A DNA stretch of 64,000 nucleotides. Source: Branchiostoma floridae. Lineage: Eukaryota > Chordata > Leptocardii > Amphioxiformes > Branchiostomatidae. Of this stretch, positions 34,391-61,100 are shown one piece after another; within the stretch, counting starts at the first letter, position 1, and each line of letters begins with the position of its first letter. Where the stretch lies: positions 12,407,525 to 12,471,524 of the forward strand of contig NC_049996.1 of NCBI RefSeq assembly GCF_000003815.2, written 5' to 3'. Position numbers and translations under genes: made by a program. The notes under the pieces were generated by a model that worked only from the letters and a program-made list of their open reading frames with translations, was not told the DNA's origin and made no database searches.

Positions 34391-34570
34391 CTCCGAGCAG
34401 AGGTTCGGCTCCGACTGTCTTTGACGTGTTTTAGACGGTTTTGTCTAGCTTTCCATTTTGTTAAGTTTTCTTCTTGTTCACTGGCCATGTAGAAAACGGT
34501 ACAAAAACCTAAAATAGAAATCCCGACAAAACACGTCAGAAAACAGCCGGAACCGAACCTCTGCTTGGAG
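34391..34570. mobile_element. Foldback MITE, CTCCAAGCAGAGG family, copy 1
   Basis: The left arm is CTCCGAGCAGAGGTTCGGCT. The right arm, reverse complemented, is CTCCAAGCAGAGGTTCGGTT, and both continue to GACGTGTTTT. Related elements lie at 43312-43474 and 43781-43916. Confidence 0.75.
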
Positions 34571-37500
34571 ACTACAATTCGCCATCTGGGCCCATTGCGT
34601 GCGAGCGGCTGACACATGGCACGGTACCGCAGGCTCCGAGAAAGAATTTTCGGATTTTGTTTCTCCAAAATTGAGGGTAACGATATTTATAGAGAGACTA
34701 TTTCCTGAATGCTAGTTTGAGAGAAACTGAATATATGGTACATTCTTTTTTTCTTTACAGAACATACTAGAAGTGAAGACTCTAAACAACGCTGGTTTTC
34801 TATGAAAAAATGTAACGAAAAACGGACCAAAGAGAAGCGTTAGTTAGTTGAAATACATGCAAACTTTGTTTAGAAAAATTCTTAGTGAACTTTTGCTGTT
34901 AAAATTCTCGATTCAAGCTCAAAATCTTTCTTTTCACACTACGCCCTCTCATTCACGATTTGTCCCCGTATCTTTCGTACATGTACATGTATATGCAAGA
35001 AGGCGCTTGGCCGGAAGTGTCAATTATGACAGAAACGTGCTAAATGAATTTTCACAAATTAACTAGAATTGTAGTCCGTTACATAATTTCCCAGCCATAC
35101 CCCTTTATTGAACCTCCTTGCTCCACAAACAAAAGAAAATTAAATCCTATGTAAAAGTTGTTGCCACTAGATTCTTTATATTGTCGGTCTGTTTCTGTAT
35201 AGTTTCTGCCGATGTTTCTTTTCCATCCACCGGGGCGGTCCGGCGATGTCGGCGGCCTCGCAGGGCGATAGAACCGATACTGTTGAAGCCATCCGCCGCT
35301 CCCATGGGACTCGTGGCAACAAGCATCCCCGTAGACTTGAAAATAAATATTTATTTCCATCAAAACTATTCCCATCATCGAGACAGCCCCCACGTTACAT
35401 CTGTTTTCAGGTTTCTAAAGTTGAAACAAAATAAAGAACTGTTATCGCTTAAAAGATTTGCGCAGACGAGATTTGCATCTGATGATCTATTCTGTGGTTT
35501 GCAAATCTTTCTTCCCAGACGAGAGTAAATATTTAGAGGACAAACATTTGCTCAACGATGTTTCTATTGCAAACCAATTCCAGAACACTTTTCTTCGTTT
35601 TTTCTTCGTCTATTCCAGTTTTACCGTGAATTTCTTGTGATGAGGTTTTAGAAACATCTTTTCTTCTTCCTTTTTTCGTGAAATTTCCAAAATTCCATCA
35701 CAGACAGAGACAGGAAATTCAATCGGCTAACAATAGATACTGAAATACTAGTAGACCTGTGCTGTTTTCTAAACTACAAAAAAAACCTCTCTCACAAGAA
35801 AACTCAGTTGTTTTCTGCAAATTGGTTACGGAAACCTTCCAAGTCTTAATCCCTTTATTAGGAGGCACGACGTCGGTTTTATTACAGACAAAATGATTTC
35901 GATGGAACAGACAAACAACCTCGTGGCCGAGACAATAGAAGTGATTACGTCTGGTGATTAACATCGTAAAGAAGTGCCGCCCCTTGCTCCTCCCTGTGTT
36001 TTTCACAACCGGCGAGATCAAACCCCCCTAATTATCAGGTCACACATTCACAATTGTCTCCCTTGACAAAAGCTCCCCCTCTTTTCCACCCCCTGCTATC
36101 CCACAGGGAAGCGACTCATGAATAAAAATCTGGGAAATTCGGGCGGCGGTTGGTTTGATGTGCCCGCTAGAGTGTCTGTAAGTGTAATGGTGTATAATGA
36201 CGGCTGTCATGTCTTCATTCACACCTAATTGTGTCTTTTGAAAGATCGTAGGCTTTTGGTGAGAAGCTTACGCGAGGAAAAATCAAGCCATAACAACAAT
36301 TTCTGGCTTCCTTGATCTAAATCAAGAGGATTTGTTAGAAAATCCGTTTCAGTCTCCTTCTTGTATCCTTTTTGTATTAATACGAAATCCCACATCAAAG
36401 TTTTTTTTTGTGCTTGAATTTGGTTCAAAGATGAGAAAAAGGAAGGACTACTCACTAGCTTTTGTTAAACAGGAAATAACAAGATATGTAATTTCAGGTT
36501 TTAGAAAAAAGTACTATGTAGGGTTTGCGCTTACGACAAAAAGCAGGCCTTATTTGTAAGTCACACAAAAGAGACGGATACATCAAAAACTTTTTGTGAT
36601 ATTAAAGCAGCGAAAAGCGTGGGAATTTGTTTTTGTGCTGAAAAGTATATTTTTAAGTTCGTTCCTTTTCCCTTTCTTCATTTTGCTTTGCGCAAGTTTT
36701 CTGTTGTTCTGTCTCGCTCACTTTGGAGAGTAAATATTACGTATTTGTTTCCACCCAAGAAAGGGGTCACATAATGTACTTGTTTCACCGTACTTTTGGC
36801 CCAATTATTGAATTCACTCATGAAACACTTCGAGGAAACCTTGAGAAATATACCTGTACACTAAAAATCAACGTGATTTTTGTTAAATTTTCCCGTTTAT
36901 TTTCAAATTGTCCCAAAATATCATCTCCGTTCGTTTCTCCCTCTCGGTGCCGTGACAAGCAGCACCAGTCGTATTTATCTGGTAAAGCCCCACCAAACAG
37001 ACAGCTTGTGCCAATGTGTTGGCCCTGTGTGTGCGGGAGAAAGCCGATCAGGGCGCTATGTTCAGTGTCATTTACCGATGATGGGTTTCTCATCTGTGGC
37101 CGGGGCCAAACTCTCTCTGATCAGTGCCGAAAACGTAAACATGAGCTCCGCTGAGAGCCCGGCCGCATATGGAGTCGCTTGCCATCCCCTGACCTCAGTC
37201 TAGCAGCTGTGTGCGCGAGTCTGGTTTTACCTCAGCCTGTCGTCTGATTCCGTCAAAATACGCGTCTTTTACTCATTTCCCCCACCTTTTGAAGATTTGG
37301 CCCTTGTTTTAGTTTAACTAGAGTATTTCGGCACTTTTAGGAAGGTTTTAGGGGCGCTTGCTCGGGTGGAATCCTCGCTCGCCCCGGTATGGGAGCGTCA
37401 AATAAATCACGAGCGGGAGAATCTGTCAGGGAAACGGGATCCTCACGCCTAATTGAGCGCCGAAAGAAATGATTTCGGGGCCGCGCTAAGATCTGAGGAG

Positions 37501-38926
37501 ACTGTCGTCTGAATGCCCCACACAGCTTGAGGACATGTCATTTTTGTAAACTTGTGCATATATTGTTTGCGGGGGGTGCGGGCTAGGGCCCGACAATTAT
37601 TGGGGGGCACAGCGCGGAAGCCATCGGTATGTGTAATGTAAATTATCCGCCTGAGTGGAGGGAGGGCGGCGGAGGCGGTCAAAGGCGGGCCTGGGCGGGG
37701 CACTTACAAGATTGTTGGCCCTAGTCGTTTGATCTTCCCCGCCCCACCGCGGGGAGCCCCTCTCCCGGAATTCGCCCATTTTATTTTTACACTCCAGACC
37801 GTAAGTGAATCCAGCAGGCCGCGAACTCAGGGCAGTTTGCTGGACCTCTTCTGACGGACAAATTCGGTGGAACAGACGACCCAACCGGCCCACACACGAA
37901 ACAACAGTCTCTACACCCACACCGAACCTTTCTATCGCTCTCTGCAAGAGTTTTCCCCACTTATCCAAAGGCTTTTGTCTGCGCCCGCTAAGCCATTTGG
38001 AATCGGCGGACAACTTGAAAGACTCGCACCAAACTAAACACTCGTGTTGGTCGGAGTAGTCCGCCATTATTTCCGTCAGTTTGCGCTACCCAATTATCCC
38101 TAAAACCTCACAAAAAAGTTTCAATATTTTACTCTTTATCCGAAGTTGAAGTATACCGTATGTCAACATAAGTGTTACTTTAGAAGGAATCAAACGAACT
38201 TGCTAGGGGGCTTGGAAACTTTATTTTTTATCGTGTGTGTTCTTGAAGTGCGAAACTCCCTACTGTGTCGGGTCGTCACATCTTCATTTCTTATCGAAGC
38301 CGAGTATCTGGGCGAAGAAATTAGCAGATTTCGTTGTCCGATAACACAATAGCTGTTTTACGAACAAAGCCTGCATGCAATAGTCGCATTGTGTGTGGCG
38401 AGCCATGTGACCCACTGATCCAATCCCCATATGGGGCGATCGGCTTCGCTCCTTTGATCAAGAGTTGGCCCCTATTTAGCATGTAGATAGATTACGTGGC
38501 TAGTGATTAGGTCGTTCTTTTACCCGCCTTTGTCCCGCCCAAGACAACCCCTCTAATAATCGCTAGTATTCTACATGTCAACAAACAAGCCGCGGGAGCC
38601 CTGTGTATAGAAGGGATTGAATTTCCTTTTAAATCGCCCGCTGATCACATATGAATGGCGGGCGGCACACATCACAGGAATTTTCTCGCGTGCCGATTGG
38701 CTGGCGGTGAGATCAGAGGCAGTTGCAAGTCTGGTCTGTGTTACCGCCTTTTCACACCGCATGCAGAAAAAGGCTGCGTTTTGGGAGGAGAAGTTCACAA
38801 TTAGCCGCCCCTCGCTCGTGACCGCATCTTGCTGAGAGTCAGTCCCGGAGTCCCGACCTACAGCGAACTACGAGATCACCGAGCGACGACTAGTCAGTCT
38901 TACGGCACTACGTCCACTCCACCCCG
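34571..38926 (+). promoter_or_regulatory. Sp5 upstream regulatory region
   Basis: 4.3 kb without a convincing gene and with alternating A-T rich and G-C rich patches. G-C rich, complex, repeat-free islands are near 35890-36230, 36940-37200, 37350-37760 and 38400-38900. TCF/LEF-type sites include TCAAAGG (37679-37685), CTTTGATC (38452-38459) and CCTTTGT (about 38527). An inverted CCAAT (ATTGG, 38696-38700) lies 230 bases before the start codon. Vertebrate SP5 is a direct Wnt/beta-catenin target, which makes the TCF sites plausible. Regulatory function is inferred. Confidence 0.5.
35907..36062 (-). promoter_or_regulatory. Candidate enhancer: left member of the inverted pair flanking Sp5
   Basis: Reverse complemented, this segment aligns without gaps over about 116 bases with 43021-43136. 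It shares AACACAGGGAGG, GGGCGGCACTTCT, TACGATG, TAATCAC and TTGTTTGTCTGT. A weaker match continues on the other side. Confidence 0.6.
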
Positions 38927-40521
38927 ATGGCTTCAGCACTAGCCGCCTATCCACAGAACACGCAGTTTTTCCATCAGGTAAATATTCTCTTCCAGAATTA
39001 TGTGATTTTTTTTCAGACGTAACACATGTTGACTGCACGTTTCCTCGTAAAATGCCACAGTGTGTGCCTCTGGCTGTGCAGAGGTACAGAGGGCACATGC
39101 CTCCAATGTGTGGTCTGCATTTCAGTTTTGTACAGTGCCATTTTAGCCGATAGTGTTCTACTAACTAGTATTGCTGGAACCACGGTCCAACTTTGACTAC
39201 TGTGTACTATTTTGACTGAAGTTCTGTCGCAAAAGCTTTTTGTAAGTCATCAAAGTTTCTTGCATCATCACAGTGTTGTGTATGATGGTTAGATTTTCTG
39301 TTTTCATCATGTTATGTGTTATTGAGTGTAGTTTGGAGTTTTTCCAAGTTTTCCCTAGCTGTTTGTCCTTGAGATGTATCGATTTTGTAGCTAGAGGATG
39401 GTTTGTTTTTGTTTGTTTTGTTTTATGTTTTGGCGTGGTGAAGCCACACAGAAACTTAGAGGCTGAAATAGTCATAGTCCGATAATCTGTGACTGTCGAA
39501 ATGGTTTCGTACACGATTTTAACCGTATTATTATTCCTAATTCCAGCCCGGTGCAGAGCTTCAGAAGCCGTCTCCTCTCGCCATGCTGGCAGCGACGTGT
39601 AGCCGTATCGGGAACGGCCCCGTCCCGGCAGAACTCGAGCAGCACCGACTCTTCCACCCGTGGTCCACGGCGATGTCATCCTTCACGCCCGCCGCGTCTG
39701 TGACGGTGTCCGCCCCGACATACGTCGCCCCGTCGTACGGCACACACGAGCTCCCACTGACGCCACCAGCCGAGCCCGGGACGGCGTCCTTCCACTACGA
39801 TATGATGAAGCTCCAGAGCCAGTACCTACACGCCCCGGCCCTGAGTCTTCCCCCGGCGCTATCAACGGCTTCATCCGCCTTCAGCTCAGCGCCTCTCCCC
39901 GTCATGTCCAGTCCGACCAGCTTCTCCTCGTCACCGCCACACTGCAGCGAGGAGTCCCTGCCCTGGTGGAGCATCCAGCCGTCCGTGAAGCCACACATGG
40001 CCCCTACGTTCATGCGGCCTCCCCTCATGGCTTCACCCGCCGAACTTTGCCAGTACCCCGCCCAGCTTGCCGGCGTGCTACAGAAGCCAACCATCGCGAC
40101 AGCCCGTCGCTGTAGGCGCTGCCGGTGCCCGAACTGTCAGAACTCCACCGCAGGGTCTCCCAACAAGAAGAAACAACACATCTGCCACATCCCCGGCTGC
40201 GGGAAGGTGTACGGCAAGACGTCCCACCTGAAGGCGCATCTCCGCTGGCACACCGGCGAGAGACCGTTCGTCTGCAACTGGTTGTTCTGCGGGAAGAGTT
40301 TCACACGCTCCGACGAGCTCCAGCGGCACCTCCGTACCCACACGGGCGAGAAGCGCTTCGCCTGTCCCGACTGCGGTAAGCGCTTCATGCGGTCAGACCA
40401 CCTCGCCAAGCACGTCAAAACACACGCACAGAAGCGGGCCGGGAAGCCAGACTCTCCCGACAGCCAGGCCTCCGACATCGAGAACAACGAACAGAATCAC
40501 ATCGACGTACAAGAAGACTAG
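38927..40521 (+). CDS. SP5: Zinc-finger transcription factor Sp5
   Basis: DNA-binding factor of the Sp/KLF family that binds GC/GT boxes. Exons 38927-38977 (17 codons, [17 protein letters not shown]) and 39547-40521, joined at CAG/GTAAAT and TTCCAG/CCC in phase 0, give 341 residues. The Sp box [14 protein letters not shown] is at about 26-39 and the buttonhead box [10 protein letters not shown] at about 206-215. Three C2H2 fingers follow at about 228-310 ([31 protein letters not shown], with TGERPF and TGEKRF linkers). The short first exon, the Sp-box wording and the overall length favour Sp5 over Sp1-4 or Sp6-9. The exon is strongly G-C rich compared with its surroundings. Vertebrate SP5 acts in Wnt feedback and axial patterning. 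Likely poly(A) signal at 40972. Confidence 0.93.
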
Positions 40522-40971
40522 AAAACAAGAACTTTAAAAGTTGCAAAACGTGCCAAAGACTTGCCATACAGAAACTGTTCTTCCTAAACAATGCCTTCAG
40601 AAGAAGTGCTATGTTTTGAGACAATATATTTAGAAAATGTACATACTGTATATAGCACAACAGAGCCTTTTGACCACTTTTGTAAGATACGAAAAACAGA
40701 GAAACGTTATTTTGTGATATTTTTGTTACGTGAGAAAAAAGAGAGGACTTGGTCCTTTGTAACGTTTTCGTGTTCTATATAGCAGTCAGTATATTTCACA
40801 GTACCAACGACACAAAGTACAACTATTTGGACCCAACCATTTAAAATCATGTTCATTTGCTGTACAATCTGTATCCACTGTTTTCAGTATAAACATACGT
40901 AAAACATCAGTATATAAACTGATACATATTGACAACAAAGTTCCCTTCCTTTGACTGCATTTATTCTCATG

Positions 40972-40977
40972 AATAAA
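40972..40977 (+). terminator. Candidate poly(A) signal of Sp5
   Basis: AATAAA about 450 bases after the Sp5 stop, in A-T rich sequence; the first such hexamer downstream. Confidence 0.55.
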
Positions 40978-42969
40978 CCGTCCGAATGTTCAAATCATAT
41001 TCTTCTCTTTGTCGTTTATGTCCTTGGGTTAGATCTAGGTCAGCTTCATGCAATGGTGGTAGAATTTGGCAAAGAAACGCCAGAATAATTAGCCCGATGT
41101 TATAGATGGACCCGTGGTAGGGTAAGCGTTTCCCATTGACGACCAAAACTAGTACATTGTAACATCATTAGCTTAACTCCTACAGCAAACTATGCCCTCT
41201 AGTTTATTGAATTTCAATTCACGTCTACGTCGATGAAGGTTAGACATCCAGGTAATAAGATAACATCCAAAGTACGCCAATTTTCTTCTAGTTTCTGTCA
41301 GACTCCAAATGTGTGAAAATACAGAAAAATATACTGAAAGTTGCAAACTACACTCCCGCGGCCAGCTAAATCCTCTTGAATATAGTCAGTCTCTTAAAGT
41401 TCTACTCTTTTTTTAATCAACATACTGAATCTAGTGGCAACTAGTATTTTTCAGACAGTGTAGTAAGCCAGGTAGAGACACCATACTAGATGTAGAGATG
41501 TGTACAAAAATGGGTCTGCCAGATGGCCGCTGTCTGAGTTCCCCAGGCCTGGCATCTGTGCCTCTAGTCGGGCGGGCAGCTCAGCGGGTAATCCTAGTTC
41601 GCTATTTGCCAAATCAAAAGTAATCACAGCAGCGGCGAACTCTATCCTCCCATCTGACGGGCGGCCCCTTTGATCGTGCCCGGAGAGCAGCCGGGGGCAA
41701 GAGCGGGGGGAAGCCCTTTTCGGGCGGCCCGATTGGAGGGGCGGGCATGCCACTGGGTGGCGGAATGGCACAATAAAACGTCTAAATAAATGCCCGCTGG
41801 AGTGGGAAAACGGGACGGTTTTCTGCCCCATTTCTCATGAGAGTGTGTCCTGGTACATTCCTTTGGTGGTGGTCGCACAAAAATATACAGACAAGCCTCT
41901 AACTTTGGCGTCGATTGTGCGTAAAGTTTATACATATGCCAGCTGAATTAAATCTGCCCACTGTCTAGATCTGGAATTGCTCAATGTACTTCAAAATGAC
42001 CCTAACGTTTCAACAAAGCAAAAGTATATACCACCAATGTCTGCGTTGAGATAGGAAAGCTATGTACATGAAGTTATTTACCCATGCATGAGCCAAAAAA
42101 AAAACGCTTTCTTCGTACACTTTAAACACACATTTTGTAAAACATAAATTATGACAGGTAAATATGATGTCTCATTCTTTATGTTCTGTGTTCTAGTTGT
42201 CAATCTCTGGACGACACGTTTTTAAAATCCCTGCTAACCCGGACGGTTTTGGAGGCAGGCCGTCAGTCCTTTGGTCAACAGAAGTTGAAAGGTTCGCCGC
42301 CCAGAGTCAACACTCGGTAGCACGCCTGTGTGGGGCGCAGTGTCAACACTAGCGGATCAGGCGCCTGCGTTTACAAGAAACAAGCGGACCAAAAGGGCCC
42401 TCTGTTTATATTACGCAAACCACACAGTTCCTCTTCGCAAATTTGAGACATTTTACTTACTTTTGCGAAATTTTGCCGGTTCTGAATTTTGTTTTCCGAC
42501 GGGATGGAAAAGTTTGCGGATGTGTATTGCAAACAGGGAAGTTTCGTTAATACTTGCAGAAACGGAGGTTTGGACTACTAGATCTATATAAGCCATTTAT
42601 TGTACATAGACGGGAGTAAGAAATCATTTAATAAAGGAAATATTTAATATTGTATCAAAAGGAGAAGAAACCATAACAAACGTCTGCAAGAAAAAAAAAA
42701 TTGTATATGACGAGTCTGACGACATTTGCGGGTGAGAAACTGAAACTAGATTGTCTACAACTGGGTACGAATCGACGAAGATTGAAACTTGTCATAACAG
42801 AAAAACAGATTTTCCATTTGTGTTGGATTCGTTTCATTTTCTGTCCAAGAAAAGGGTAATTTAATATAGACAAACGCCCGAACTTGTCGCGTTTTCAAAG
42901 TCGGGATTTCCGAACAATGAGTGTCCGACAAGAGCCTTGAAGCGCCGCCAAGCGGCGAAGACAAATACG

Positions 42970-43136
42970 CTCAGATTACCTCGGACAAAGCCAAATGTGT
43001 GGCACAGTAATTGTCCTTCCTGTGATCTCACCGCTCGCGAACAACACAGGGAGGGGCAGAGGGCGGCACTTCTCTACGATGGTAATGATGATCTCTAATC
43101 ACCCGGTTTTGTTTGAGCCCACAATTGTTTGTCTGT
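42970..43136 (+). promoter_or_regulatory. Candidate enhancer: right member of the inverted pair flanking Sp5
   Basis: Homologous in opposite orientation to 35907-36062. By hand count about 64 of 82 bases are identical without gaps in the core 43021-43102. The match continues to TTGTTTGTCTGT on one side and CACACATT on the other. Confidence 0.6.
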
Positions 43137-43311
43137 GCGCTGAGAATTTGTCTAAAGCCCCACGCCTTCCGCCCGATTCACACCTCAGCACAGGGTGTCA
43201 GACATGAAAGGCTTCACCGATTCACACCGCTAGCCTTTCTTTCTTTCTTCTGTCGTTCTTTTTTCAAGGTGAAGGAACTGTGAGTTTTGGAGCATCCACT
43301 AGGCCTTCCGG

Positions 43312-43474
43312 CTCTCCAAGCAGATGTTCGGCTGTTTTTCAGTATGTGTTTTTAGGCGTTTTTATCGGGCTTGTGATATTTTCTTTATGTCTTCCAGCAA
43401 CAGCACCACGGAATAGCAAGCCCGATAAAAGTAAAACGTCAAAAACAACCGGACACGGACGTCTGCTTGGAGAG
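43312..43474. mobile_element. Foldback MITE, CTCCAAGCAGAGG family, copy 2
   Basis: The ends CTCTCCAAGCAGATGTTCGG and (reverse complement) CTCTCCAAGCAGACGTCCGT are followed on both arms by TTTTTATCGGGCTTG or ACTTTTATCGGGCTTG. This gives arms of about 60 bases. Confidence 0.75.
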
Positions 43475-43780
43475 TAAGAACTTCCTGTAGTACGGGGTTT
43501 TACTTTTAGTTTTAGTTATGATGGCCCAACTGCCCGGCTAAACATTGTCCATATCTGGCTAAATTCCACTATTTTCCAGCCAGTGTAGTTAGCTTTTTGG
43601 GACTAGAATGTGTGAGCGAGCATTTGACAAGCAGACTTTTCGACGGTTGGGTTTATTTTATTTATTTATTTGTTTGTTTTGTGGCCCTTTCTGTAATCCT
43701 ATGTTTCATAGGAGCGAGTGCGTTTTTCATTAGAGCAAGGAAAATGAAACAATTGGCGGCCACAACAATGGCGATATCAC

Positions 43781-43916
43781 TCCCCAGGCAGAGGTTAGGC
43801 TTCGGGTGTTTTTTTTTAACGTCTTCTTATGCATTTTTGCTAAACCTTCTGTCTTAAGGCCCGACAGAAACGCATCAAAAGAAGCCACAAAGCCAAACCT
43901 CTGCTCAGATACTCAG
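43781..43916. mobile_element. Foldback MITE, CTCCAAGCAGAGG family, copy 3 (degraded)
   Basis: GGCAGAGGTTAGGCTT and, on the other arm reversed, GAGCAGAGGTTTGGCTTT form diverged inverted ends. Confidence 0.5.
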
Positions 43917-49100: not shown

Positions 49101-52100
49101 TGCAAAGACGGGGGCACCATATACTTTCTGCAACATATGATGCACTGCTCAAAAAGTCACATGTTCTATCTGCAAACATAACATCACCGCAGCAGTGGCT
49201 GGCTCAACCCTTAACAAAGACTGGAGTCTAACATTTATGCAAGTCCAATTTTTGCATTGAAAAAAATTGGACTTACATATGTAAGACTTGCACATTTAAG
49301 TCCAATTTTTGTGTTGAAAATAACAATCTGCTGTACAACCCTTCACAATAGTTACCTGACCATAATCTTCTTCCACACTGACTCAGCCCTCTGCCTCTGT
49401 AGCTGTTTCCTGGCCAGGAATCCCCGTATGTTAGACTGCAGGACCACGGCCGAGCTTTTCCTCTGGGTTACTTCTGACTTGTACCTTCTCCTGGCTGTGT
49501 AGCCTCTGTACGCTGAATTGATACACAATTCTCACAGTCAGGTTAAAAGGTAAAGATAATTGTAGTCCCATGGCCTTTGCAGTTGGTTGTTCACCAAAAT
49601 GTCTAGTTTAGGGCACAGTATTGGAAGGCAGAGCCCATCCCTCTCCTTCCACCACCTTTTTCCTCCCTATTAAACCAAACTCAGGTACCCATTACACCTG
49701 GGTGGAGTAAGGAAAGTCGTGTCGAGCACCTTTCCAAAGGACATAAGCCTTATGGAAATGCCAGGAATTAAAACTATTACCGTTAAAGTCGTGTCCACTA
49801 GCCTCAGACATTTCATGCCACTAAATGCCTACTTACAGTAGAGTGGAACTTGTTATCACCAAGCACAGTAGGTGCATCTTCTCTGGATAGTTTTAAAGAA
49901 CGCTTGCAGATAGATGTGCAAAAGTTAGGTGTGACGGATCGTTCAGTGTAATATAACCAGCTGCTGCCGCACCGCGTGCCTGCAAAGCTGGTGTGTTACG
50001 CCTAAGGGCGGTTATACCGGCTATATAGATACAGATACAGATACAGTCTCGAAGATAATATTATAGTGAAACTGTAATAATGACCAAGCATACCTTTCTG
50101 TATAGTGACTGCTGCTGTCTGCCTCCGTCTCACTGCAGTCTGATATTTCTTTCTCACCAGCCAACCACGGACAACTGGAACAACAACAAAAATGTCTTGT
50201 CAAAAAAAAAAAAGAAATGTCAAAACTGCCCAAGAAGACCACTTAGGGGTGCTGATATTGATAAAATCTGATGTATATAGACAGGTGGTCACTATACTAT
50301 TCTATAGACAGGATTCTTAATGTTTGTGTCAACAGGAAAAGTCATCTTAGGATCACCAAAATATAGTTACATTGGACTAGCCTCCGTAGCAATGAATCAG
50401 CAACGGCTGGAAATCAGCGACCCAGTACAAAAAGAAATGGCCAGCAAAACTGTACTATGAGCAAAAAAAAGGCCCCAGAGAGTCTGCTGCGGAGGCTAAC
50501 ATTGGGCAGTTGTTCTTTATGCAGAGGTGGTCAATAGTAGAGATTTGACTACAAAAAATATTGAAAGTGACAAAAGCAGTTCATTCATTCTTGATGAAGA
50601 ATGAAGTTGCACAGTCAAAAAATCTTATTCTAAGTGTACTTCTTAAATGTTGGATTGAATGTTTAATTCACAAACAAACGAACAACCTCCTATTTCGAGA
50701 GAGTGTAGAAGCTCACCTCTCTGTAACAGAAGCACACTGCTGTGTCTCTGTTGGCGGAACCTCCTGTACCTGCGCATGTGGAGCCACCTGCGCACCTGCG
50801 CCTGCACCAGCACGATGCGGTGGTGCACCTGCTCCACCTGTCGGGTCAGCTGTTCCACATGGTAGTACTTCAGAAACACCTGCAAGGAAAGAAAAATGTT
50901 GTAAGTGTTATAAGTGCTTTCTCTGTACTATACTTGCATGGCTATTCTTATACTTTTATGTAATTTTCAGATCTACTTATCCATTCCTAATACATATATT
51001 ATAGTTCAGAAATCCTTTTGTTGTATAGGATGGTGCTTGTAACTGTTACAATGTTTCTACTTCTATAGCGCTTGGACCATACAGATGTAAAGCTACAAGC
51101 AGGGGGCTAGACCATTGAGGAATATTCTAGTAGTTCACATTTAAGATTAAAAGCATACACATGTAACAAAATGATTTTCTTAGTTTTGACAACTTCACAC
51201 AACTATCCAAAATTTGCACACCACTAATTTGCATAAATGGGAAGTTTCACACACATAACCAGTGAGATGTCAGTACCTTAGTCTTGCCAAGTCTCCAATT
51301 CTCCATTCTACAGTTCTGTAGGATCTGTTGACAGGTCTGCTTGCTGGGGGGAACCTCCTTCCCAGGGCTGTATGCCACCATTGCATACCTGTGAAAGAAA
51401 ACAACAACAACACTTAACATGCAATTGCAATACTGTGTATGGTTAATAGGGGGCACTGCTGTACTGCTGGCTGTGGAAGGGAGCTCAGCAAGTTGTGAGT
51501 ATAATATCCAACTTTCAGCCTCCGCTGAATGGCCATTTGTGATGTATCTTACTACATACAGTACTTTCCATGATTAATAGAGGTTTGAAATGATTGTTAG
51601 CTGGTCCGAACCTTCTGACAAAGTCCTGGAAGGCGATCCGATGTGAGTACCCCTCCCTGCGTATCCGTGTGGTCTCCAGTACTCCCGTGTACCTCAGCTG
51701 TATCAAGACCTTCTCAATATCAAACTGTCCCGGAATCTTGTCATTGTTGGGCTTGATACACCTGTGGAAAAAGAACACAAAATCAGAATCAAACATTTCT
51801 TCAGCATATGTGTCCTGTAATGCTATATTGTATGTACTGTAAGTTTTGAGATGTTTGTGACGGTTTTAATATTGTGGCAGTGACATGGACACTGTTTGTG
51901 TTTGTAATGTATGACTACTTTCCTACATAATTGTTTCAACCAAGAATTTAGAGTACTGTGGAAACCTCCTTTCTCTTTCTATTGAGAGAAAAAAAAGAAG
52001 TCCCTACAAAAATAGATGAGCTTACAGTAGTCTGATAATTGTACTGGTGAAATTACGTAATAATTCATGAAAGTTGTCATCAAAATTCCTGCATGCAATC

Positions 52101-55100: not shown

Positions 55101-58100
55101 AAAAGTTGTTTTCTAACCAAGGTAGCAAACACGTTTACAAATTGTCTGCATTATATTTCAATAAATTCATAAGCATTCTCTTAAACTAGGAGACCAATAG
55201 TCAGAAGTTGTCACCATAGATATTTTGCTAAAATATTGAAATAACAAGAAAAATAAAAAAATAGACACAGCGAAAACAAAACCTCCATACACAGAGAGAT
55301 AACAAAACCACAAATTTAGACAAATAACTACACTGTATACATTCATACTCTTACCCATTATCCTTGTTAGGTTTCAACAGTGTGTTGATCTTGTTAACGA
55401 TCCAGTCAAAGAGTCGTCCGTACAGAGCCTTGGACATGGCGTCTCTCACGTCCTTCGCCTCATCCACGGTGTTGTACCGGACGATGGTCTCCCCGCGAGC
55501 CACCACGCTGTGCGTCGTCAGCGCCTCGCAGAGTTCATCAGGGTTCACCGCGAGAAGAGTGGAAGCTAAAAGTGTGGGGATAACAGAGAACTGTTCAGTT
55601 TTTCCAATAAACGGGGAAAATTCAAGCTCGTCTTGTTTTCATATCCATTGTGTATAGTCCTTATATCGGCTTCAATGTAACACACCAGCTTTGCAGGCAA
55701 ACGGAAGCAGCCGGTTATATCTCACAAGACTCCTTTACATATCTAACTCTTGGACTGTACAAAATCAGTGTAAATGCGGACTACTTCCTTGTAGCATGCA
55801 CAGTGTTTGTAGTACATTTCAATTACAGGTCACTACTAGTATTACAGTAACAGTTCCAAATAGCAATGCAGAAGCACCCTCTACTGATCTAAAGTAGTAC
55901 TGCACACCCTTGTCCAGTGTTTGTGGTTGACAACAGCTCTGTTGGCTGTTGTGTGCTTGCAGTCAGTGGGACTCTCTACACTTAAAACCTCCCAAACACA
56001 TGCTTCACTTCTACCGACCACATGTCACACACATCATCGTCGGCACCGACAGACTGCCTTAAGCAAGTAAGCAGTGGGACTAACGGTTGATAAAAAATAA
56101 AGAATTAAAACAAAACTTTTAGGCCATCTTGTCTTTTGATAGTATGTTATACATTCAAGATACAAAGTAATGTTGACAACACTACTCACCCTTGTTGAGT
56201 GTTTGTAGGTTGACCACGTAGCTGTTAGCTGTTGTGTGCTCGTAGTCAGCGTTAGCAAACTCTATATTCCCAACATGTAGAATTCCTGCCAAGATGCTGT
56301 ACACTGAGTGGATCTCCTGTTAAATGGAGAATATCAAAGGCTCAAGTCACTCAACCTTTAAAAATCATGATCAAAGAAAAATCAGCTTTACTGCTATTAT
56401 GTATGTGATATGGGCCAAGGGCCTGAAATAAAGTTGAAAAAAAAAATATATATGTACATGAACACAGAAATTGAAAACGTTGTATACAAAGTCAAAATGA
56501 TTCACATTTACCCTAGATTTTATACAGTTCTAGATCTGTCACAAATATACAATTTTCCCTTCAATAGAAGAGGTATTATCTACTAGTATATACCATTTGA
56601 TAATTACAACCAAGAGCATACCTCTCCATTGAATCCAATGGTTTCTAGACATTCATGGATGGCATCAAAACGTTCCCTGTTGTTTGGGTCCTGTGCAATG
56701 GCTGCCATACTGCCTACATCATTGGACAGGTACCTGTGAAAATAATTGAAATGCATTTAAGCTTTCTACTACACACCTGTCCTTGGTGCTGAACAACATC
56801 TACAGATATGCAAACACATCTGTCCTTGGTACTGAACACCATTTACATTTAGGAAAATATTCCTGTCCTTCCTACTGAACACCATCTACATAAATTCAAA
56901 CATACCTGTCCTTGGTGCTGAACACCATCTACATACATTCAAACACACCAGTCCTTGATGCTGAACACCATCTACATACTTCAAACATACTAGTCCTTGA
57001 TGCTGAACACCATCTAAACAAACATTCCTGTCCTTGGTGCTGAACACCATCTACATACAGACACATCAACTCTACTCTCTCCCTGCCATACCTGTATGTA
57101 TTTGTTGGCTCTAACAGGTAACCGTCCTTTCTGGCCAGTCCAGCAAAGATGTAGTAGAAAATATGGAAGTTGCTCTCTCCCCTGTATAAAACAATAAACA
57201 GCACAATTAGTAAACATTTTTCTAGTATACTCACAATGACTTTTGTGACAACAATCCATATTTAGCCATATTAAAGTACATGGCTATCCCCTTGATTCAA
57301 ATTGAACTGTACACCCCTGTAAATAAATGGTGCAGCCTGAAAATTCATCACTTGAAAATTAGTTTTCTGCAAAACCAATGTGACTATTTAAAACACCTAA
57401 GATCAGGTAACGTATTTGTAATGTTAATTTTCAAAGACAAAATTAAACCTCTCAAATTACTAGTATTTCAACACAAACTTTGAATGAACTGACATTACTT
57501 CTACCTCATTTCAGTTCTGTCTTTACTGTTGAATTCCATTCTTGTGTTTTTCAAGGACATCCAAGCCAAGGAAAGAAAGTACAGCAAGGGAGGAAAATAC
57601 AGCAAGGGAGGAAATTACAGCAAGGGGGAAAATAGAGCATAAGAGGAAAATACAACAAGGGAGGAAATTAGAGGAAGGTAGGAAATTAGAGGAAGGTAGG
57701 AAATTAGAGGAAGGTAGGAAAACAAAGCAAGGGAGGAAAATACAGCAAGGGAGGAAAATACAGCAAGGGAGGAAATTACAGCAAGGGGGAAAATAGAGCA
57801 AGGGAGGAAAATACAGCAAGGGAGGAAAATACAGCAAGGGAGGAAAGTACAGCAAGGGAGGAAATTACAGCAAGGGAGGAAAATACAGCAAGGGAGGAAA
57901 TTACAGCAAGGGAGGAAAATACAGCAAGGGAGGAAAATACAGCAAGGGAGGAAAGTACAGCAAGGGAGGAAATTACAGCAAGGGAGGAAAATACAACAAG
58001 GGAGGAAAATACAGCAAGGGAGGAAAGTACAGCAAGGGAGGAAATTACAGCAAGGGAGGAAAATACAGCAAGGGAGGAAAGTACAGCAAGGGAGGAAATT

Positions 58101-61100
58101 ACAGCAAGGGAGGAAAATACAGCAAGGGAGGAAAGTACAGCAAGGGAGCAAGGGAGGAAATTAGAGCAAGGCCAAAGGCAACAAAAGGATCACTTACGGC
58201 GCTTGGCTCACGACCCTGGACTTCTCCAGAAGATACTCGGACAGTTGCGCCCCCGTGACGGCACCTGTGCCTGTGAAGTTCATCTCCAGGTACTTGCCAA
58301 AACGCGAGGAGTTGTCGTTGATGGCTGTCTGCGCGTTGCCGAAAGCCTCGAGGAGCGGGTTCACCTGTAGTATCTTCCTCTCAAGGGTTCTGTTACTGGC
58401 CTTGGGTATAAAAGGTATGAACAGGTAAGGCTATATTTGTCACAAATAACTACATAAGAAAGTCACAAATATGCAAATTGAAGAAAGTCACAAGTATGCA
58501 AGTAAAGTCAATACTTTCAGATGTCAGATGGACACTTTCACATCCTGTGCCAATGGATGTCCCCCCAAAAGGCTTGTATCGACAGGTTTTTGCTATGGTT
58601 GGTTGGGCAACCAGAAATATAACATTTTGTGAAAGGCCTTATTCAAAGACTTCACACGCTGTGTATTGATTCTCCTTACCTTTCCCAGCTGAGTGAGTTG
58701 TTGCACCAGTAAGTTGGCACTGACTGTCTTCCCTGCACCACTTTCGCCACTGATGACAAGACACTGCAACAAGACACACAAAAATAATTAAGCCTAAGAA
58801 CAAATTTTCCATCCTAATATTTGTACCCAGAAATCTAATCAGCTGAGAGACTATAACTGACAGGTGACAAGCTTTCATAGCAGACTAAGAGCCCTGTCAT
58901 ATTCCTTGTGCGATTGTCAAAGTGAAACTGACAGCATTGTTTGGATAGTTGTGCATATGTGCTAAGAAATTCAGTTGTCTTGTTTCAGAAAATGCTGTCT
59001 TAGATCCCTGTTGGCTCTTGGTTCCTTCACAGCTTGCTTAAGAATTCTGTCACATCAAAATTGTATGATGACATACAACATATGTGAAAGTGCCACTATC
59101 GGTATTACAATCCATGTCTTTTTTGGCATTGAAACCACACATCACAATTTTCAGACAAAAGGCTGTAGAAGTTTTAAGTGCTAACTTACAGAGAATCTTC
59201 CATAGAAAAAGTTTGAAGGTAGAAATACATTGTATGTGCAGAGTGTAAAAGAATGTTGCAAAGCTACTTTAGAGGATCCGTACGTGATGATTTGGTTGCG
59301 TTCCCCGTCTACGCTCCATCCCGTGCCACGGTGGCTCCTGTACGCTATTTGCCGTGAGCTTAGGTACAAGCAGCAAGGAAGGGAAGAACAGATGGTTCAC
59401 AGACAGATGGAATAGTACAAAGCAGCAGTAGATAGTTCAACAACATGTGACACATTGACAGTTAAATTACAGGACAAACTACAGAGTAGCCTGTTGGCCT
59501 AGTGATCAGCAACATTACTGCTCTCTTGGATCCCTTTTCACTAGATATTTGATACCGCTCAACAGTCACAGCGTCTAGTGAAAAGGAGTGAAGGAGTAAG
59601 TGTGACAAAAGAATAAGCACACATGGAAAACACAAAAGTATGAAAACTGCCACACTTTTGGATGTCATCCATGTGAGAAAGTTATTGTGGCCTTATTTTG
59701 AACAAATGTAAAGATAATGTATGCCTAAACTTTTCAAGTATTATTTGTTTTAACCTGACCCTGTATCCTAAACCATATTTGGTACCAAAATGGCCTTAGC
59801 AGTATGCAGTATTAAAGTTTACCTGGTTGTGCTTGTGATGTACCATGGCCTGATACGCTGCGTCTGCTATTGCAAAGATGTGAGGAGGATTGTCCTGCTT
59901 GGCTGCACCACGATAAACCTCAGAGTACTGAAAGAAACAGTTCATTTTTTAAAGTGTTTCATGACTTTTACTCTGAATGCATGATTCAAAAACAAATTAC
60001 GAGAGAATTGACTGATTGAAAAGGAAAAAAGGAGTGATCTTGATCCAGTTTTAGCTCACTGAAGAGCTAGTCTTCCATTGATTGTGACAGAGAGGACAGA
60101 CGCTATGTACAGTATTCACAGGTTCATTATACCAGGGAAATTCCCCTAGCTCTTTTTGACAAGCACAATGAACAGTGGACCACAGCTTAACGTCCCGTCC
60201 TAAGGACTGCAACCCTTTCCGGTAGCGTGCATGTCAGGTGAGCGACATAGCCAGAATCAAACTCGGCTTCAACTTCCAGAAGCAGGACCACTAAGGCCAC
60301 ACCAATTTAATTTCTTGGTTCACGGATTATTTCATAAAAAATATGGAGCGAGAGGGCGAAATAAAAATAAAATTAAAAATCGTAAAATGGTTGGGGTAAA
60401 GGTAAGGGCTAATCCAAAACATAAAGAATAAAAAGTTTTCAGCTTGAAAAAAGTACAAAAACACTATTGCTGTACAGTAACAGCACCGGTTTGTTCAAAA
60501 TTACAAAAGTAGTGTCAGTTTTTATGTTTGTCCCATTCTTCATGAATGGAAAATATGACTGCAATAATAATACCCACATTTTAAGGAGCTTATAATATAA
60601 AGGCCAATTTGCTACACCAGAAAGTTGCTGAATGGTTTCATTAATGGTGAAAATTTGCTGAATGGTAATTTTTTTTTTTTTCTCCAAAAAATAGGAGCGA
60701 GCGAATCCGTAAACCAAGAAATTAAATTGGTGTGGCCTAACCACTGGACAATGCATGCTACCAATTGATTCTTAGTCTTACCTCATCAGTGTACATGCCC
60801 AGGTCCTGGAAAGGGTTGACAGCGATGAGAATGTCTCCCACGTACGTGTAGATCTGTTCTCTCTTGTAGCGCTGGTGCAAGTGTTCCACTATGATGTCCT
60901 ACAGGCAAAAACTCTGTCAGGTCATTTTGTATTGGAGAGGATGGACAGTTGACAATAGGGTGAGAAAATCAAGTTTAGGGAATGCTTGTGACCTTCAATG
61001 CTATTCTTACCCACATGCATGTGCTGTATTCTAAAAATTGAAACAACAAGTATTGAAAAAGCTGGATACTCCGGCATACCACAGCCAATTGAAAAATGAT

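Follow-up and report, generated by a model that had tools for sequence, protein, structure and literature searches.

Duplicated conserved non-coding elements are usually encountered as copies at paralogous genes after genome duplication. The transcription factor gene Sp5 is a Wnt target in vertebrates and restrains Wnt signalling in Hydra; Sp5 and Wnt were reportedly also the subject of an amphioxus study of 2017. The human SP5 promoter, as described in the sections of PMC4267635 used here, is a Wnt target whose response depends on the TCF C-clamp and on Helper sites. In Hydra, according to the relevant portions of PMC11201823, epidermal Sp5 represses its own promoter by way of proximal sites for the protein; near the start site, sites for Sp5 and TCF are clustered together, and the GC box is the site bound by Sp/KLF proteins. 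The present analysis concerns 64,000 nucleotides of contig NC_049996.1 of the lancelet Branchiostoma floridae, the whole of which is referred to below as the window. In it, two homologous non-coding modules (elements A and B), conserved in blocks and inverted with respect to each other, flank a gene that we take to be Sp5, and both share words with the promoter of that gene. We consider it probable, judging from their sequence, that A and B arose when an enhancer-like module of Sp5 was duplicated locally and in inverted orientation, long ago, and have since been kept by constraint.

The elements and their cores are as follows.
35907-36020, plus strand: element A, a 114-bp ungapped homologous segment (alignment, BLAST)
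43023-43136, minus strand: element B, the inverted homologue of A (alignment, BLAST)
35957-36020, plus strand: core of A (BLAST, diagonal count)
43023-43086, minus strand: core of B (BLAST, diagonal count)

Element A aligns with B, read from 43136 to 43023, without gaps on one diagonal, and 81 of the 114 bases are identical. On the same diagonal, A from 35941 to 36020 and reverse-complemented B agree at 63/80 positions (64 of 82 core bases had been counted by hand in the preliminary description), and identity rises to 54/64 between the core of A (35957-36020) and that of B (43086-43023). The gapped local score of the pair is 49, while 1000 dinucleotide shuffles averaged 9.3, with no score above their maximum of 15. 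BLAST recovered the core with an E value of 1.0e-14 when a 601-base query with A was compared with the window and of 1.1e-12 in the self-comparison of the window; with the two elements as queries, the 64-base core was the sole strong off-diagonal match (1.0e-14 and 8.5e-15), all others having E values of at least 0.03. The outer left arm of the pair is 27/50 identical compared to 25% expected (P = 1.3e-5, an optimistic value, as the segment was picked for best score) and terminates in a perfect ACAGACAAACAA with the register unchanged. Past 36020, the register shifts by 1 base and a weak match, with AATTA, CACACATT, and TTGTC in common, continues to about 36058. If the diagonal is left unshifted, identity is 25/100 beyond 36020 and 18/100 to the left of the segment, i.e., background. 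The ungapped match of about 116 bases that had been reported therefore stands for the 114 bases to 36020 but not for the continuation to 36062, where the 1-base shift intervenes. The existence of an inverted, homologous, non-coding pair, also proposed there, is upheld by the ungapped identity, by a score far above that of the shuffles, and by the lack of a coding pattern.

Similarity between A and B is block-wise. When blocks of 5 or more bases were listed, six perfect blocks of 7-13 bases were found (ACAGACAAACAA, GTGATTA, CATCGTA, AGAAGTGCCGCCC, CCTCCCTGTGTT, and GAGATCA), with less similar stretches between them. Two boxes of the core recur in the argument below.
35970-35982, plus strand, in A and 43061-43073, minus strand, in B: perfect block AGAAGTGCCGCCC with the GCCGCCC / GGGCGGC box
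36010-36020, plus strand, in A: box CGGCGAGATCA, with its counterpart CGGTGAGATCA at 43023-43033, minus strand, in B

Identity between A and B is higher in the core than in the left arm (54/64 versus 27/50; Fisher P = 7e-4, again optimistic, as the border between core and arm was taken from BLAST's own core). This unevenness, together with flanks at background, is as expected of constrained blocks and suggests something not readily given by uniform neutral decay. The lack of indels, which had been put forward as a sign of constraint, is weaker evidence than first thought: the probability of finding no indel in the pair is 0.4% at 6 substitutions per indel and 3.7% at 10:1 but 19% at 20:1, and the argument holds only if the ratio of substitutions to indels is about 10:1 or lower.

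The Sp5 promoter holds two core blocks of the pair, CGGYGAGATCA and GCCGCCCYYYGCYC. In each of A and B, the GC box GGGCGGC lies within a longer word, GRGCRRRGGGCGGC, and is accompanied by the CGGYGAGATCA box; both words are found again in the promoter.
38705-38715, plus strand: CGGTGAGATCA in the Sp5 promoter, the third of only three matches (at most one mismatch) in 64 kb
38804-38817, plus strand: GCCGCCCCTCGCTC in the Sp5 promoter, the third of only three matches (at most one mismatch) in 64 kb

With at most one mismatch, CGGYGAGATCA has three matches in the window (A, B, and the promoter), where 0.87 would be expected; the same three places account for all matches to the GCCGCCCCTCGCTC word, for which 0.03 would be expected and none of 100 shuffles reaches three. 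In an automatic scan with 16-base blocks, both promoter matches were 14/16, and other 14/16 matches were scattered through the window. To avoid a choice of words by eye, all 14-base blocks of the core (35941-36022) were scored on 400-base tiles and the best two non-overlapping blocks were retained; the 624 tiles, set 100 bases apart, were chosen in advance so that none touched A or B. The promoter (38527-38926) scored 38.2 bits, which was reached by none of the 616 tiles away from the promoter (best, 32.3) and by none of 500 shuffles of the promoter itself (mean, 24.7; maximum, 33.7). The order of the words in the promoter is opposite to that in A, and the promoter is therefore not a third collinear copy.

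The composition of the surrounding DNA was examined in a non-coding Sp5 flank of 7303 bases (35000-38926 and 40525-43900, A and B included), with expectations from block shuffles; exons and intron were removed both from this flank and from the 55.1 kb of remaining window with which it was compared. GGGCGGC occurs nine times in the flank (seven without A and B) compared to 0.88 expected, a count not reached in 500 shuffles, and once in the other 55.1 kb. The shorter GGGCGG occurs 16 times (3.05 expected), and GAGATCA occurs five times (0.74 expected; 0/500 shuffles), the remaining DNA having seven more. A GGGCGGC box is present in each of A, B, and the promoter, the arrangement expected of an Sp/KLF autoregulatory element. 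The TCF-type motif CTTTGWWS is found seven times (2.96 expected), and 13/500 shuffles reach that number. RCCGCC occurs 17 times (5.2 expected), the highest count among all 30 arrangements of its letters, with runners-up at 14, 13, and 13; as other orders follow so closely, part of this enrichment reflects general G+C richness. The flank has one strict combination of TCF and Helper sites; at least one such pair arises in 18/500 shuffles, and the rest of the window has none. A second, looser combination adjoins A.
41660-41675, plus strand: TCF-type CTTTGATC and a GGCGGC Helper-type site, spaced by two bases, in the downstream flank (the only strict pair)
36142-36159, plus strand: Helper-like GGCGGCGGT 2 bases from GTTTGAT, adjoining A (relaxed TCF pattern, picked after the site was seen)

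The G+C-rich island at 41500-41830 (G+C content of 0.62 in 41500-41749) contains two GGGCGGC boxes as well as CTTTGATC beside its Helper-type site and is a further candidate regulatory element.

We propose that one cis-regulatory module of Sp5 was duplicated locally, in inverted orientation around the gene, and survives in two copies, A and B. The duplication would be old enough for unconstrained flanks to have lost all similarity, while purifying selection would have kept the blocks that contain binding sites. All three places, A, B, and the promoter, may be bound by the same proteins. For the GC boxes, the candidate is a factor of the Sp/KLF type, plausibly the Sp5 protein, with TCF possibly joining it at the GAGATCA or Helper-type sites. 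The assignment of the putative sites to Sp5 and TCF is tentative, and we regard it as possible rather than probable. The two copies could serve as enhancers or silencers with partial redundancy, through which both Wnt signalling and the Sp5 product would adjust the expression of the gene. A duplicated enhancer, one of the interpretations offered in the preliminary description, is the best-supported reading, given the lack of a coding pattern and of an RNA fold, the conserved blocks, and the recurrence of two of these in the promoter; the regulatory role is what we infer from these features.

A number of points weigh against this reading or against parts of it. The 7-mer GGGCGGC and both promoter words were selected after the pair had been viewed, and CGGYGAGATCA with one mismatch also reaches three matches in 3/100 shuffles. 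The GC-box cluster may partly be ordinary CpG-rich promoter DNA, beyond the correction provided by a dinucleotide shuffle, and assignment of the boxes to Sp would follow from the general taste of the Sp/KLF family for GC boxes. Compared by eye with the TCF consensus CTTTGWWS, the GAGATCA box differs by one base in A, in B, and in the promoter alike; the extended Helper motif GCCGCCR is not significantly enriched (3 compared to 1.35 expected; 70/500 shuffles reach it); and neither A nor B contains CTTTGWWS within 11 nt of RCCGCC, the criterion for a C-clamp Helper pair. TCF input is therefore weak. As a main explanation, TCF and Helper sites are weakened by the enrichment of GGGCGGC but not of GCCGCCR, and for the same reason the GC box is the better-supported input. 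Finally, the Hydra gastrodermis is, in the portions of PMC11201823 that deal with it, without the same form of Sp5 self-repression.

The elements could instead be relics of a short mobile element, such as a miniature inverted-repeat transposable element (MITE) or a short interspersed nuclear element (SINE), of which two copies inserted near Sp5, whether or not they were later put to regulatory use. We consider this unlikely. Repeats are abundant in the window, with 75 pairs at an E value of ≤1e-3 in its self-comparison (tandem arrays included), and a MITE-like family with paired ends is present near both elements, at 34391-34570, 43312-43474, and 43788-43904. These MITE-like elements, found among the 25 longest of 95 inverted pairs, have CTCCRAGCAGAKGTTCGGCT-type inverted ends with arms of 31, 19, and 28 nt that are 79-89% complementary; they cross-match and are located outside A and B. 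However, the shared edges of A and B lack inverted repeats, and a scan of 361 bases around each gave only arms of 8-11 bases, at differing places in the two. Neither has an Rfam or tRNA match, and only two copies of the element are found within 64 kb at sensitive settings. Tile alignment at these settings detected no third copy in the window: apart from the pair, A scored at most 14 (in a tile that reaches the edge of B), followed by 13, and B scored at most 16, compared to 15-20 for 12 random pieces. The best non-pair tile of B is the Sp5 promoter, and the sharing of two core blocks with this promoter would be unexpected for random insertion. The earlier description of the islands as otherwise single-copy was examined by tiles and self-comparison within the 64-kb window. 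The exact core pattern had 0 matches in viral contigs and 0 in prokaryote contigs, counts that are uninformative about animals.

It is very unlikely that A and B are paired architectural anchors (CTCF-like or tethering elements) looping around Sp5. Such anchors would suit the inverted arrangement on either side of one gene, and the words common to the promoter also fit tethering. A CTCF consensus is matched with three mismatches in the homologous block of A, B, and the promoter (35977, 43053, and 38805), and a one-mismatch match is present at 41750-41763 in the downstream flank, within a G+C island and not part of the pair. However, the three-mismatch level is common (76 places in the window compared to 57.7 expected; 1/100 shuffles reach 76), and the orientation of the motif, minus in A and plus in B, makes the layout divergent. 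Vertebrate CTCF loop anchors follow a rule of convergent orientation. Looping between paired anchors, as suggested in the preliminary description, is thus not supported, given both the commonplace level of the matches and their layout.

We give even less credence to two GC-box-rich enhancers that converged independently, without common descent. GGGCGGC sites are indeed spread across the locus, but a single register of 114 bases with six perfect blocks of 7-13 bases goes far beyond what shared single sites would produce, and outside the pair, tiles of the window score no higher against A or B than random pieces do. Least probable of all are paralogous exons or a structured non-coding RNA, which a 114-base match without indels might suggest, as mismatches between A and B are spread over the codon phases (12/12/9) in a manner that is not coding-like, stops interrupt six of six frames in A and five of six in B with no frame open in both, fold z-scores for the four strands are -1.10, +0.24, -1.93, and -0.04, and the three Rfam matches of the window (one tRNA and two mir-2060) are all away from A and B.

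The gene enclosed by the elements has two coding exons.
38927-38977, plus strand: Sp5 coding exon 1, 51 bases (ATG and GT donor read from sequence)
39547-40521, plus strand: Sp5 coding exon 2, three C2H2 zinc fingers (sequence, Pfam)

Pfam recognizes the fingers alone, and the name Sp5, which we presume to be correct, derives from the earlier reading of this DNA and from traits of the family. A published survey, in the part consulted, lists three Sp-family genes in B. floridae, with Sp5/Btd on the same scaffold as an Sp6-9 gene (PMC3087555). About 2.9 kb separate element A from the first ATG (38927), and 2.5 kb separate the stop codon (ending at 40521) from B, in agreement with the distances first given. 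To speak of G-C rich islands at both sites, as was done earlier, suits B (G+C content of 0.51) but is weak for A (0.42-0.46), adjoining 250-base steps having values of 0.34-0.45. Short inverted copies of their own words adjoin the elements: CACAGGGA, CGGCGGTTG, and GGTTTGAT by A (36102-36159) and GAAGCGCCGCC by B (42939-42949).

Downstream of Sp5, a myosin motor exon is found on the minus strand at 51515-51865. Human SP5 adjoins MYO3B, and by analogy the proximity of this exon to Sp5 may reflect an old shared gene order; a literature search combining MYO3B, SP5, and synteny found nothing. Two matches to the precursor of mir-2060, an amphioxus family that fits the lancelet origin of the DNA, lie on the minus strand at 56771-57066, at a 43-bp tandem array, and an 18-bp tandem array of ~32 copies occupies 57567-58148.

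If A and B are copies of one Sp5 module and both are active, they would constitute a natural experiment on an enhancer that was duplicated beside one gene and diverged while keeping its core sites. The GGGCGGC cluster leads to a testable prediction, namely, self-regulation of Sp5 in a non-vertebrate chordate. If the pair is a repeat relic, it is ordinary. A more far-reaching proposal, which we rate as a long shot, is that A, the promoter, and B form one regulatory hub, in which the inverted modules would meet the promoter via common factors and provide a symmetrical, self-limiting Sp5 read-out of Wnt signalling; this arrangement, which would also account for the two words common to all three places, would have arisen by duplication of an enhancer rather than of the gene, in the lancelet lineage or early in that of the chordates. 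The pair was not described in the titles and abstract beginnings among the matches listed in the literature search, and a word search of the main text of an amphioxus functional genomics paper found Sp5 zero times (PMC6292497).

Compared with known systems, A and B resemble duplicated conserved non-coding elements and shadow (redundant) enhancers in being homologous, block-similar, non-coding segments near one developmental transcription factor gene. They differ from the duplicated elements in that both are located at one gene, inverted and 7 kb apart. MITEs share with this locus the short elements with inverted ends that are common near A and B, but A and B themselves have neither paired ends nor further copies in the window. 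The closest functional parallels are the self-regulation and Wnt response of the Sp5 promoter in Hydra and human: around lancelet Sp5, likewise, GC boxes and TCF-type sites are gathered. In the parts of the Hydra and human reports considered here, the described sites are in promoters, whereas in the lancelet the words are also present in two distal elements. Control of lancelet Sp5 by inputs spread over two distal copies would be a reasonable extension of the Hydra and human cases, and the pair is most likely an old duplicated switch for Sp5 rather than something of a new kind.

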